In this document: piece by piece, positions 25,392 through 43,486 of the stretch
Position numbering within the stretch: the first letter of the stretch is position 1
How the letters are laid out: each line of letters starts with the position of its first letter
Source: Clitopilus passeckerianus
Lineage: Eukaryota > Basidiomycota > Agaricomycetes > Agaricales > Entolomataceae
Reading direction: 5' to 3'
Assembly (NCBI GenBank): GCA_944990035.1
Contig: CALYLX010000079.1
Location: forward strand, 479,390-543,389
DNA: 64,000 nucleotides
Program-made: the position numbers and the translations under genes
The notes under the pieces: generated by a model
Told to the model about the DNA's origin: nothing
What the model saw: the letters and a program-made list of their open reading frames with translations, nothing else
Databases searched by the model: none

Positions 25392-26807
25392 GATGGGGCC
25401 GTTGTTGGATGGCCGAAGGCCATCGTGATCTCTCCTCCTCTTTATAGCGTTCCAGTTTCTGCATAGCGCCACCCTGTAATAGTTATGGCACTAGGGTGCC
25501 GAACTCCCAGCCCATGTCACTGAAACGGGCAAACGCGACCGTGAAACGAGGCATTCTGGATGGAAGCTGGAAGGCAGCAGGTGGATTCGGGGTATTTTTT
25601 GGCCGCTTTCTTACATGTCTGGTTGTTTTTTTTACTTGGTTTGCTCCGTACAAGGTGGTCGGTGAGCCCATTCGTGGTTGGTCACGGATGTAGCCTGCGG
25701 ATGATGTTCGGGTGCAGGAGAGACGTTCATCAAGCAATGATGACGTCATTTTTCGAGGCTGGTTGAGGCTGTGGGCAAGCGTCCCGTTCGATGAGTTTCA
25801 TCGCCTTCAGTACAGATAAATAGCTGCGATTTAATTTCAGCCACCAATATGACTTGTTAAAAGCTCAACGATGGCAGAAGAAGGCGTTGAAACTTGAAAG
25901 TTAAAGAACGGCTTCGCCGAGACACCGAGTCCGGCTTGAATCGATCAGGGTCAGAACGGATAATGTAAGCAACAAATCCATTCGCGCTTCCTTGGCGCTT
26001 CCAGCTTCCTCACACTCACTTCGCCGCCGGAACCTCTTTCCAACGGAAAACCTTGGAAAACCGGCTACAGAAACAGTACAGAAACCTATTACACTTCTTC
26101 TCTTCCTAAAACGGCAATAAAAGCTGCCTTTTTACCATTGAGAAATATACCCGAGGTGCCAATTCGCTTCCTCGCATGATTCTTGTTAGTGTAGGACTCC
26201 CAGCTCGCTCCTGACGCCTGAGGTATTACTTTAATCCGCAAGGTAGTAGTATGCGACCAAATAGCTACGAGCATTCGTGCACCATTATTAGACAAGCATC
26301 GACACGCACCGCCCATTCTTGACCTTCTTTGACTCTATTATTCCATCTATACTTGACGCGAATTACTTCTCGCACTCCTGAATTGTCGAGCACAGCAGAC
26401 GTACGGATCGAACATTCTCAGCCACAATATTCAGCCATGTGATTATGCATGGCTGTAAGATGCGACATTGGCTAACAGTCTGACGGCAGACGTAGTGGAG
26501 GTGCATCTCTTATGCTCAAAGATATCGGTGATAAATGTACATTTATCCATTGATCCCCCACGTCTGGCTCGGTACAAATCACGACCTATGGCTGACCACT
26601 CATTCAAATAAATGATGTTGAACGCGCCTGGTTCGAATCATTGTCTCATGGCGCTGGTAATAACGTTGGCCATGTTTATTCACCGTCGGTACGTGCTCAA
26701 CTGCGTCTTCCCCTTATTTGCGATCTGAAGTATCTTCGCATCGTGGGTGGAACTCCCAAGTTCCCTGTACGTATATGATTCATGCATCGAGCCACCGAAC
26801 CTTGTCG
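25392..26807. other. Intergenic, nothing recognised
   Basis: About 1.4 kb with no frame I can support. The first few hundred bases are the promoter of the FAD oxidase, which reads leftward. Confidence 0.45.
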
Positions 26808-27230
26808 CCCAGTCTTTCATCAACGTTCGTCTCACTCTCCCTTTGCTTAAAACCAAATCATCATTTCCTCGACTATACTACCTCATACCTCTCGTGCATC
26901 CCCTCCCCTTGCTCTCAAACCCTTGTAAGGCTGGCTCCTCGATGTTCCGCATAAGTACAAAGTAGGTGCTGAAAGCGTTCTGCACCACTGGGCCCGGGGA
27001 TTCGAGAAAGGACGGTGAAGCCAAGCCAGGCCGGAAGTCCTGAGCGCTGGGTTCCTGCAGCTGGAAGCCTGAAACATGGTCTGATTATTCGGCCAGCACT
27101 TTTGACCGATGGAGAGAGTGCGACCGGCAAGGAGGCCTTCAGGGTAGCCAGAGGGAGCTTGGAGGGTACACCGTTTCACGGAAACATGTTCCATATTTCA
27201 TTGCCGATGTTTCTACTCCAAGCTACGCGA
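26808..27230 (+). pseudogene. Decayed copy of the NAD(P)-binding protein gene at 30431-31389
   Basis: The plus strand aligns by eye to 30867-31340, the third exon of the intact gene. Recognisable blocks match TCATGAACGTCCTCCTCTCC, GGTTGGCTCCTGGACTC, AAAGTCGGTGCTGAACGTGT, CCAGCGCTCTTGACGGATGG and GATGTTGCCCATTTCATTGC, with substitutions and gaps. Stops and length changes break every frame. The first two exons were not found. It is a partial duplicate in the same orientation 4 kb from its source. Confidence 0.75.
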
Positions 27231-28061
27231 TATTCGCTTGATCGCAGCAATCCGATGATATCGTATACTTTAATCTTCCGGTTCAACGGATCCCGATTCA
27301 GCATGTGTGTAAGGCGCATCTCACAATCCAAGGCCGAGCGGCCGAAAAATCAAAACGTCAAAAAATAGATTGCACTAAGAGGGAATGGAACTCCGGCGGG
27401 TCAATGGCAACGGCCCCAGTAGTGAGACGAATGTGACGCCACCGTTTGCATGGTTTTCAAGCTGTCAAGTTTTAGATAACATCGCTGAAAGTCTGCTCGA
27501 GAAGGACATGAGAGCCATACCAACCGCCTTGAGATGGCCGAGGCAACGCACATGTTACGAAGTGTATCAGCAGAATCAGGGCTGCCTCGGCTGACGATCT
27601 ACTGATCGACCAGAATCAACACATCCATCTTTGATTGGCGGATGGATTTCCAAGCCTTTCATTTTCCAGGGCCATTTTGCTCCAATGCCCCACTTGTTGG
27701 CATGTGGAATCTGATTGGAACCTCCCACAGTTTCTAGGGACTCCATTCCCGTCGCCATGAGTTCGCGCTTAGATCAGACTTTCTCGCTTCAATTGCAATA
27801 TCTCACACGACGTGTTGCCTGGGTCCCAAGGCCAGGCGTCGTCATCTTGCCCTTCCCACTCATGTACACAGCATGCGGTTGATCGTTTTGGGGCTTGTTT
27901 TGGCCTGCGTGCTCTCATTAGGCGACAGCAGCAAGTATAAAACCCCTCGAGAATCATGTTGATTCTTCAGCTGGTCTCACCCAAACTTTCCTACCGAAAC
28001 ATTTTCTTGACGAAACTTCTCTTCTTTCCCTTAACTTACCACCTTTACATCTAAATCCATC
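27231..28061. other. Intergenic; promoter of the repeat-protein gene
   Basis: No gene supported. The last 130 bases hold a TATA box (annotated separately) and a CT-rich leader with CCTTTACATCTAAATCC just before the ATG at 28062. Confidence 0.45.
27936..27942 (+). promoter_or_regulatory. TATA box of the repeat-protein gene
   Basis: TATAAAA 120 bases upstream of the ATG at 28062, followed by a C/T-rich leader. A strong, well-placed match fits an abundantly expressed secreted protein. Confidence 0.65.
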
Positions 28062-29466
28062 ATGGTCGGAAAAATTCAACTCTCTACTGTCGCTGTCGCC
28101 CTTGCTGCTTCTGCCAGTGTCGCCGCTCGCCCCACTTACGACGCTGTCTACGAGCGTGACCTTGTCAACGACGAGGTCTATGGGCTCTATGCTCGTACAC
28201 CCGCCAGTCACGCTCTCAAGCATCTCGGCAAGGACGCCGTTGGCCACATCCCCGACGTCGTCGACAAAATCAACACTGGACTCGGTACCAAGCGCGCTGG
28301 TGAAGCTCAGAATCATCGCCACTCCTTCCTTCAAGATCACCCCGTCCACCAGTCGTCATCTCACAAGTCCTCCTCTGGTGGTGCCCTTCACAAGATGCCT
28401 AGGTATGGTACCCTTTTTCTCGTTGACATCTTCCTTACTGACGCCGTGTTTTTCTCACTTAGCATTCCCAAGATGTCACACGGCGGAAAGTCCAGTGTTT
28501 CCGGCGAGGTTGGCAAGCTAGTGGCGTCCAAGAAACCCTGGGGTGACCACAAGAAGCGCGATCTCTACGAAGCTCTATATGAGCGCGATCTCATCAACGA
28601 TGAGATTTTCGAGCTCTTTGCCCGTACACCCGCCAGTCATACCCTCAAGCATCTCGGCAAGGATGCCGTCGGCCACATCCCCGACGTCGTCGACAAGATC
28701 AACACTGGTCTTGGCACGAAGCGTGCTGGTGAGGCTCAGAACCACCGCCACTCCTTCCTTCAAGACCATCCTGTCCACCAGTCGTCGTCTCACAAGTCCT
28801 CTGGCGGTGCTCTTCACAAGATGCCCAGGTATGTTCACTCTTTCTCCATCCCGAATCCCGCTGACCCTCGACCTTCAAAGCATCCCCAAATTGCCCCACC
28901 ACGAGAAGCCCAGCGTTTCCCATGAAGTCAACAAGTTGGTCGCCGCTAAGCGCCCCTTCGGCAGGCGGGATCTCGAGGATGCTCTCTACGAACGCGACCT
29001 CGTCGAAGATGAGGTCTACGAGCTCTTCGCCCGCACGCCCGCTGGTCACGCTCTCAAGCATCTTGGCAAGGAAGCTGTAGGCCACATCCCCGATGTCGTC
29101 GACAAGATCAACACTGGTCTTAGCACGAAGCGCGCTGGTGAGGCCCAGAACCACCGCCACTCGTTCCTTCAAGACCATCCCGTCCACCAGTCGTCGTCCC
29201 ACAAGTCAAGCTCGGGCAGTACTAGCCACAAGATGCCTAGGTATGATACTTTTTGTTCCTCATTTCCATCTCAGCATAACTGACGATCCCGTTTCTTACT
29301 TAGCGTTCCCAAGATGTCGCACGGCGGAAAGTCCAGTGTTTCCGGCGAGGTTGGCAAGCTAGTGTCGTCTAAGAAACCCTGGGGTGATCACAAGAAGAGG
29401 GATCTCTCTGCTGCGGTCATGGATTACCTGGTGGCCCGTGCTTTGGAATTGGAGGAGCTCGATTAA
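28062..29466 (+). CDS. Secreted protein of three near-identical His-rich repeats with KR sites
   Basis: Four exons (28062-28402, 28463-28828, 28881-29240, 29304-29466) give 409 aa. A signal peptide (MVGKIQLSTVAVALAASASV) precedes three copies of one unit. Each holds an acidic start (ERDL..DE..L.ARTPA), an amphipathic stretch (LKHLGKDAVGHIPDVVDKI), a dibasic TKR, then a His/Ser-rich tail (NHRHSFLQDHPVHQ). Between units come KMSHGGKSSVSGEVGKLV and DHKKRDL. The KR pairs are typical Kex2 cleavage sites, so release of short peptides is likely; this is inference. Every intron lies at the same place in the unit, so the exon plus its intron was duplicated. Introns 1 and 2 can be read through in some frames, which hides the structure. 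Histidines suggest metal binding. Family not recognised. Confidence 0.8.
28149..28402 (+). repeat. Repeat unit 1 of the KR-repeat protein
   Basis: Runs from the ERDL block to the MPR at the exon end. Nearly identical in DNA to units 2 and 3. Confidence 0.85.
28578..28828 (+). repeat. Repeat unit 2 of the KR-repeat protein
   Basis: Same boundaries as unit 1, one codon shorter in the serine run. Confidence 0.85.
28987..29240 (+). repeat. Repeat unit 3 of the KR-repeat protein
   Basis: Same boundaries as unit 1; the linker before it is the most diverged (PKLPHHEKPSVSHEVNKL). Confidence 0.85.
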
Positions 29467-41490: not shown

Positions 41491-41815
41491 TTAAACATAG
41501 GCACAAAAGGTAGTCAAAAAACAGACGCTCAGTATACAAATAACACAGTCCCAACGTTTCGCGAGAATGGCCAAGGGAAAATACAAATCCGTATCGGCCT
41601 GCTTGGGGGAATCTCTAGCCTTGACCTTCTCCCTGCATGGATATACCAGCCTACATCTGTGTCGGCAGCCGTGGGCTGCTCCCGTAGTGTGATGGGGTTG
41701 GGAGTCGATGAAGCCATATATCGACGTGAGCATTCCCATGACTCATGTTAGTAAAGGGAACAGAATAGGCACCAGCGACTAAAGTGATGAGCGCGAGCAA
41801 GGTAGAGAATTTCAT
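41491..41815 (-). pseudogene. Decayed sister of the W-repeat precursor gene
   Basis: The first 21 codons (MKFSTLLALITLVAGAYSVP) are a signal peptide almost the same as that of the gene at 43486. Where that gene has its first donor (GTTAGC), this copy has no GT. Downstream the DNA still aligns: a block with ADTDVGW where the sister has ADTDLIDLPIIW, with the G of the donor missing, then a block with KQADTDLYFPL. Read through, the gene gives only 54 residues. It could still make a short secreted peptide, but the repeat structure is lost. Confidence 0.6.
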
Positions 41816-41915
41816 TGCGGAAGAGGATGGCATGGGAAGAACGTTGGTAACGTAGGAGGGAGTGTACGCTCTGCCAATCTGAAGTTCTATCGACCGATAA
41901 ATACCGAGATGTGGA

Positions 41916-42429: not shown

Positions 42430-43486
42430 TTAGACTTGATTATCCTCTACTTGCTTTCCTTGCTGAAGATGTGTCAGCTCCTGATCCTTGTCGATAGGCG
42501 TATGCAGATAAACATACCCAACCTCCGAAGCCGTTCGGGATGAGCTTGAGGTCGACATCAGCCGGACGGGTGGTTTCTCCCAAGGTTCCTTCTTCTACTT
42601 GCTTACCTTGCTAGAAATATATCAACACGGGGGTCTCATCGATTGACACAGGCTGAAGAACCTACCCAGCCTCCGAACCCGTTCGGCGTAAATCTGAGGT
42701 CGACATCAGCCGGGTAGAGTGTTTCGCCCTGGGATCGTCCCTCCATTCGCTTGCCTTGCTAGGTAAATGTCAGCTCCCGGGCGTCGTCGATAGGCGTCTG
42801 CAGATGAACCTACCCAGCCTCCGAAGCCGTTCGGGATGAACTTGAGATCAACATCAGCGGGGTGGGGAGTTTTGCTTCGGGCTTCCTTCCCTACTTGCTT
42901 TATGTGCAGGTCAGCCTAGGTGCCTTGACATGAACGGTAGACACATTTGCACTTACCCAACCTAGTTTACCTGCATGCCAAAGAATATCCCCGGCGGGGG
43001 GATTTGGAGCCTGCTGGTCTCCCGAATTCGCCATAGCCGTCTTTATATTGCACGTTAGTCAAGGGCTGACATGTGTGCGTAAATGAACTTACCCAACGGA
43101 ACGGAAGGTCCGTATCAGCCGGCTTAGGAGCTTCTCCCGTCTTCAATCCTCCGAGGCCTCCTCCGCCCCCGATACCTCCCTTGAATATATGATTAGGTCT
43201 GCCAAAGAAGAACATCCAAGACCCTTGCTTGACTCACGAGGGTATCCTGGAATATGCACACGTCAGTCGAAGAGAGTGAGATCGAATGACTGAAAACCTA
43301 CCCAGATAATTGGCAGATCGATGAGATCCGTGTCAGCGCCCGTGCGCTTCTCCTGTTGGTTCAAGATGGAGGGTGTCAGCGAAATAGCATATGGGTGTGA
43401 GCATTACTATGACCCACGCTAACTATGGGAGCGGCGTAAGTTCCAGCGACCAAGGTGATGAGAGCGCAAAAGGTAGAGGATTTCAT
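42430..43486 (-). CDS. Secreted multi-unit precursor with six Trp-terminated repeats
   Basis: Nine exons (43486-43424, 43352-43302, 43246-43238, 43179-43093, 43040-42957, 42897-42814, 42758-42666, 42610-42518, 42462-42430) give 198 aa; every intron is in phase 0. Exon 1 is a signal peptide (MKSSTFCALITLVAGTYAAP). Six exons each encode one unit that ends in Trp at the splice site. Unit 1 begins EKRTGADTDL, with a Kex2 site; unit 2 carries PKPADTDLPFRW; unit 3 is diverged (GDILWHAGKLGW); units 4-6 share PADVDLxxxPNGFGGW followed by QGK. The plan resembles multicore peptide precursors (such as fungal RiPP or KEP proteins), but I know no family with this core. The 9 nt exon 3 is the least certain. 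No UstY-type oxidase is nearby. Peptide release is inferred. Confidence 0.75.
42518..42610 (-). repeat. W-repeat unit 6
   Basis: 31 codons from QGK to PNGFGGW; core PADVDLKLIPNGFGGW. Confidence 0.8.
42666..42758 (-). repeat. W-repeat unit 5
   Basis: 31 codons; core PADVDLRFTPNGFGGW, begins QGKR. Confidence 0.8.
42814..42897 (-). repeat. W-repeat unit 4
   Basis: 28 codons; core PADVDLKFIPNGFGGW, begins QVGK. Confidence 0.8.

Follow-up and report, generated by a model that had tools for sequence, protein, structure and literature searches.

What does a gene make when its protein opens with a signal-like peptide and continues as six repeats, each ending in tryptophan and each carried by an exon of its own? 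Such a gene, here called W, lies on the minus strand (43486-42430) of a 64,000-nucleotide stretch of the Clitopilus passeckerianus genome, the window (C79:479390-543389 in an assembly of 64.8 Mb and 160 contigs), and a sequence-only reading had proposed that it is a multicore precursor of separately released peptides. Our analysis favors, at a probability of roughly 0.55, an account in which W is a diverged relative of the Kex2-processed repeat proteins (KEPs), with most Kex2 sites lost and the units joined as one or two chains.

The nine exons of W are all open and have lengths divisible by three, its eight introns (52-71 nt) all run from GT to AG in phase 0, and TGG (Trp) forms the exact end of exons 2, 4, 5, 6, 7 and 8, not of 1, 3 and 9 (Table 1); the proposed structure of nine phase-0 exons and six Trp-terminated units, one per exon, therefore matches the sequence base for base. 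Units 4-6 share PADVDL(KFI/RFT/KLI)PNGFGGW. The start of the protein was judged signal-like by eye, as it is hydrophobic and common to two relatives, A (26774-27694) and B (from 28760), on contig C141; a signal-like exon followed by six repeated units matches the description of a secreted-looking multi-unit precursor. A Pfam search with the spliced protein (query without the microexon) returned only DUF3485 at E 0.0037, a sub-threshold match that was taken as chance, and the PDB yielded nothing for W at E <= 1. Together with the absence of cysteine after the signal, where glycine makes up 18% of the protein, this bears out the view that W consists of repeats and not of a known domain. In a protein database, neither the W precursor nor a shortened form of the KEP at C93:87k matched anything at E <= 1; a control UstYa protein from this genome gave three matches in the same database, one of them named (from Mycena epipterygia, with 47% identity across 65% of the query), which indicates that this database is poor in fungal relatives and that absence says little for W or the KEP.

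Table 1. Positions of the parts of W (window coordinates) and of KEP-like and UstYa-linked places elsewhere in the genome (contig coordinates).
Feature	Position	Strand	Description
Exon 1	43424..43486	(-)	Signal-like peptide MKSSTFCALITLVAGTYAAPI, 63 nt, phase 0; same start in A and B
Exon 2, unit 1	43302..43352	(-)	EKR (Kex2-type site) + TGADTDLIDLPIIW; EKR also in A and B
Exon 3	43238..43246	(-)	9-nt microexon DTL; in W, A and B, synonymous third base
Exon 4, unit 2	43093..43179	(-)	GGIGGGGGLGGLKTGEAPKPADTDLPFRW; close match in B
Exon 5, unit 3	42957..43040	(-)	TAMANSGDQQAPNPPAGDILWHAGKLGW; matched in B; in A a single exon replaces exons 4 and 5
Exon 6, unit 4	42814..42897	(-)	QVGKEARSKTPHPADVDLKFIPNGFGGW
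Exon 7, unit 5	42666..42758	(-)	QGKRMEGRSQGETLYPADVDLRFTPNGFGGW; sole internal dibasic site of W, GKR (allele A: GKQ)
Exon 8, unit 6	42518..42610	(-)	QGKQVEEGTLGETTRPADVDLKLIPNGFGGW
Exon 9, tail	42430..42462	(-)	QGKQVEDNQV + stop; resembles beginning of another unit
Introns 6, 7, 8	42759-42813, 42611-42665, 42463-42517	(-)	55 nt each, mutually similar
Second-copy remnant	41655..41842	(-)	Gene start MKFSTLLALITLVAGAYSVP...; stop after 54 residues if unspliced
KEP-like places	C93: 38k, 87k, 94k, 97.9k, 176k; C142: 46k, 88k, 94k, 188k
KEP-like places	C141: 286k, 556k; C74: 295k; C26: 338k; C123: 135k; C59: 374k
KEP-like places	C139: 262k; C79: 305k; C83: 193k, 268k; C82: 198k
UstYa-linked KEP-like regions	C93: 35.8-38.7k, 87.1-90.0k, 94.0-97.9k, 173.7-176.4k
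UstYa-linked KEP-like regions	C142: 44.5-47.3k, 87.7-90.6k, 94.2-97.0k, 186.8-188.7k
UstYa-linked KEP-like regions	C141:554.1-557.0k; C74:295.0-297.9k; C26:338.6-340.6k; C123:133.7-135.1k

Searching the genome with the W protein revealed C142:87.8k (E 1.1e-5) and C93:87k (E 1.6e-5), both of which are KEP arrays, and at least 20 KEP-like places occur in the genome, several of them probably mutual alleles. Thirteen of the 20 were read in sequence, while C93:176k, C141:286k, C123, C139, C82 and C83 (twice) are search matches alone, the weakest at E 0.0012. A typical unit has the form KR-(E/D/G)EA..ADxD...W...KR. The arrays at C93:87146-87925 (8 units) and C142:87751-88302 (5 units) read ERR-GEATKADDDIVFLPQSVGGWAPG-KR-EEATKADDDIV..., with near-identical units on a single exon, each bearing a Kex2 site, and one intron immediately before ERR. 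Genes with a Kex2 site per unit in the same genome agree with the earlier remark that W resembles known multicore precursors in plan. These two arrays, which are allelic, differ in that the core reads QS-V-GGW in 7/8 units of the first and QS-I-GGW in 5/5 units of the second, as if units had been homogenized within each copy.

Trp-containing cores were found in every array read (for example ADSDATFHRSSNGGW, ADTDLGFRLGSPAGW, ADADATFLYNW, AEDIFFYNW and EADTFLQRGIYW), and C142:188k additionally has two stretches without Trp between or after cut sites. The AEDIFFYNW-type KEP at C59:373.5-374.3k has NKQ rather than KR at one unit boundary, the same type of loss as in W. At C141:556.1-557.0k, an array nearly identical to that at C93:38k differs in its frame after the first intron relative to ERR and is either a broken copy or an assembly error. 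Kex2-type P-domain matches are present at C125:698k and C125:703k. A pattern match on C111 was rejected as a relative, its flank marking it as chance.

A UstYa gene beside a precursor is the dikaritin arrangement. The genome contains at least 68 matches to PF11807 (UstYa, DUF3328), many of which are exons of the same gene, and 13 of the 20 KEP-like places have one of the listed matches at a distance of 0.8-2.1 kb (Table 1); C93:94k and C93:97.9k share a match, and that of C142:88k is 2.1 kb away, with the gene start at about 1.3 kb. Again among the matches listed, none falls within 10 kb of C59, C139, C79:305k, C141:286k, C82 or the two places on C83, and none is near W, A or B, the only ones on C79 being at 119-590. 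For comparison, 103 of 1680 basidiomycete KEPs (6.1%) have a DUF3328 gene as one of their 15 closest gene neighbors, according to the portions of PMC7329392 covered here, and Pleurotus has sixteen UstYa-like genes, probably for dikaritins, in the corresponding portions of PMC8893723. Judged from sequence and against the portions of PMC7329392 covered, the thirteen linked places look like a Trp-core dikaritin-like set of unusually large size. Within the window itself, a Pfam scan of 20 of the 55 listed ORFs gave a zinc finger, Abhydrolase_3, WD40, a short-chain dehydrogenase, ankyrin and Chs7, with nothing in 13 of the 20 and no tailoring enzyme, and a scan for HxxHC gave four isolated matches, all without a Pfam match. 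Elsewhere in the window, at 28035-28922 (+), a signal-like start precedes two copies of a ~100-residue stretch, separated by TKR/KKR; the two overlapping ORF stretches scanned there had no Pfam match.

Dibasic sites number 2 in W, 1 in A and 2 in B, as against 9, 6, 10, 4 and 3 in the five KEPs counted. Those of W are EKR and the GKR of unit 5, which is polymorphic, allele A having GKQ at this place. A KEP boundary reads WAPG-KR-EEA and a W boundary W-intron-QGKQ-VEE, so that in units 4-6 and the tail the intron follows the core Trp and precedes what was once a Kex2 site, which suggests that each such exon corresponds to one old processing unit of site, leader and core. The precursor would enter the secretory pathway and be cut by Kex2 after EKR. 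The KR sites of the KEPs are mostly KQ or KE in W, and its units would therefore stay linked and be released joined, not singly, as one chain of ~174 residues or, in the window haplotype, as two (106 + 68) through GKR. In silico, Kex2 cutting after EKR gave fragments of 106 and 68 residues and no others. More probably, then, Kex2 trims the front of W, and what remains is one linked chain or two. The release of six separate peptides, as the sequence-only reading inferred it, is not supported by a single dibasic site among five internal boundaries.

W could nevertheless function as a multicore precursor and release separate, possibly modified Trp peptides through single-basic cuts or through other proteases that have replaced cutting at KR. 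Its relatives in the same genome do carry a Kex2 site per unit, one internal GKR remains in W, and C. cinerea KEPs expressed in yeast gave products cut after single Arg (PMC9769878, in the portions covered); such single-basic cutting, known for some KEPs from the same portions, means that more could be released from W than we infer. Against this stand the scarcity of dibasic internal boundaries, with none at all in A, and the lack, among the matches listed, of any UstYa gene in the vicinity of W, A or B, and we consider this reading clearly less probable than that of linked chains.

Comparison of repeats and introns suggests how the units multiplied. Units 4-6 lie in three 161-nt copies at a spacing of exactly 148 nt, the second and third sharing 70% and 76% identity with the first, and this repeat is not due to chance. 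Introns 6, 7 and 8 also resemble one another (z 9.7, 5.0 and 3.3, reached by 0/200 shuffles, the number used in each test), which indicates that exon and intron were duplicated together in 148-nt blocks. Introns 4 and 5 are likewise similar (z 4.7), and intron 4 of A resembles introns 4, 5 and 6 of W (z 4.7, 7.2 and 5.7), thus tying the groups 4-5 and 6-8 together. Intron 2 resembles introns 4 and 7 less strongly (z 3.5 and 3.4). Intron 1 resembles none of the other W introns (z at most 1.2), and an origin of the remaining introns from it was rejected as unsupported by this comparison. In A, a single unit exon occupies the position of exons 4 and 5, giving five units where W has six, which upholds the idea that units are gained and lost in frame; unequal exchange between blocks of exon and intron would insert or delete whole units in this way. 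Among the KEPs, C93:97.6-97.9k has one readable unit and after it a second intron (placed by eye) that is similar to the first intron in each of three sister KEPs (z 5.6-6.9, 0/200 shuffles) and is unlike its own first intron (z 0.4). Introns can accordingly be copied to unit boundaries in the KEP family, although this does not show that W arose likewise.

The window from 32650 to 63998 aligns with C141:1-38000 in reverse order and in blocks with unmatched gaps between them. Five long co-linear blocks have 85-91% identity, with 80% across the 3' part of W, in an alignment from which C141 20001-20999, standing as N, was left out. The two regions would represent two haplotypes; the ~9-15% divergence in the long aligned blocks is high for haplotypes of one individual. 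By position, A would be the allele of W and B an additional copy. The boundaries of exons 1-3 are common to all three genes, and the microexon reads GATAC C/A/T CTC among them, a synonymous third-base change. B is slightly closer to W in the first half of the gene (80%, A 77%), and the second half of W matches A at 85%, which may reflect exchange between copies.

Lost cut sites, haplotype differences and an adjacent remnant could also mean that W is a decaying KEP copy on its way to loss of function. The remnant at 41655-41842 and the missing KR sites fit such decay, as does the state of the copies on C141: the last intron of A has no AG at the homologous place, which leaves the tail of A uncertain, and B reads beyond exon 5 into a unit with a stop codon. 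W itself has kept nine open exons and eight intact introns, and its coding exons are under purifying selection relative to the copies on the other haplotype. W and A differ by 26.5 nonsynonymous and 23.5 synonymous changes over 130 codons in six comparable exons (dN/dS 0.30, Fisher p 6e-5), and W and B by 20 and 27 over 98 codons in exons 1-5 (dN/dS 0.19, p 2e-7). In gapless exon pairs of both comparisons, differences at codon positions 1/2/3 number 10/12/27 with 153 sites each (p 0.0011), those of W-A alone being 4/4/9 and not significant (p 0.11); in three gapless intron pairs the differences are evenly spread, at 9/10/8 of 58/55/55 sites. Exons are more conserved than introns (W-A 88.5% vs 81.4%; W-B 84.4% vs 77.3%), and W-A length differences are 6 and 3 nt in exons and 7, 1 and 3 nt in introns. 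In view of this constraint, decay appears unlikely.

Descent from KEPs was assessed within this one genome. A profile of 17 distinct KEP units scored A at E 3.1e-5 and W at E 0.023, both above all 9000 composition shuffles, in a test that is not blind because the units were drawn from sequences first found with W. The same profile gave 1.7 for B, which does not stand out, and the units of W taken singly score weakly (9.1 bits at best). W and the KEPs have a plan in common: E[KR]R right after intron 1, a leader, an ADxD...W core and a partial unit as tail. Their first introns show no clear similarity (z -0.1 to 2.1). Alternatively, W could be a secreted repeat protein with no relation to the KEPs, such as one of the cell wall or matrix, its likeness to KEP cores having arisen by convergence. 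This would suit its linked, Cys-free, glycine-rich repeats and a profile similarity that is moderate for W and absent for B, but it is very improbable given own-genome matches at E about 1e-5, the score of A above all shuffles, and the features that W has in common with the KEPs, namely E[KR]R behind intron 1 and a partial unit as tail.

KEPs are a defined class in the portions covered of PMC6339444, PMC7329392 and PMC9769878. W has the internal repeats of this class, but dibasic Kex2 sites between repeats are confined to the single boundary noted above, and after in silico cutting W has no fragment similar to at least two others, the criterion given in the covered portions of PMC9769878. As far as sequence can tell, W most probably derives from KEPs, yet lies outside the KEP definition itself.

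The genome holds both ends of a possible path, with single-exon arrays cut by Kex2 on one side and an exon-per-unit gene with hardly any internal cut sites on the other; together with the two haplotypes, this makes a transition from array to modular secreted protein testable. The relatives with Trp cores and a linked UstYa gene offer concrete candidates for modified peptides. A more speculative extension, to which we give little weight, is that a Kex2 array became a cassette gene, with introns at old processing boundaries, Kex2 sites almost lost and splicing rather than proteolysis determining which Trp units are combined in a secreted chain, and that the relatives constitute a branch of UstYa-linked precursors with Trp cores. 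Any internal exon of W with phase 0 at both ends can be skipped in frame.

Among known systems, C-terminal Trp is described for KEP cores of C. cinerea, L. edodes and Pleurotus in the main-text portions of PMC9769878, where QYKAPSW, SGVAADW and SGTGEASAADW are among the agaricomycete cores, so the statement that no described core of this kind was recognized does not extend to Trp-ended Kex2 cores in general; these portions hold no example of ADxD...GGW. No fungal precursor that combines an exon per core with loss of Kex2 sites was found in the main texts of the open literature, as far as covered, and the words 'intron' and 'exon' are absent from the main texts of PMC7329392 and PMC6339444. The Agaricomycete Trp-core KEPs described in the covered portions of PMC9769878 resemble W in their signal-like start, short repeats, core-terminal Trp and Kex2-type site before unit 1, but their cores are flanked by dibasics, whereas W has one dibasic among five internal boundaries and an exon per unit. 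The closer parallel in the same genome, the arrays at C93:87.1-87.9k and C142:87.8-88.3k, shares with W the intron before E[KR]R, the ADxD...GGW core and the partial tail unit, and differs in carrying all units on one exon, with KR at every unit and UstYa within about 2 kb. Proximity to UstYa/DUF3328, as in dikaritins of the ustiloxin type, is shared by 13 of the 20 KEP-like relatives and not by W, A or B. In gene architecture, the Xenopus magainin/caerulein precursor genes are comparable, as they too have multiple tandem peptide-encoding exons feeding one secreted precursor, and unequal crossing-over is named as the route of their copy-number change in the covered portions of PMC3731216. They are animal genes with no known sequence relation to W, and from the same portions their repeated exons are almost identical, whereas the units of W have diverged.
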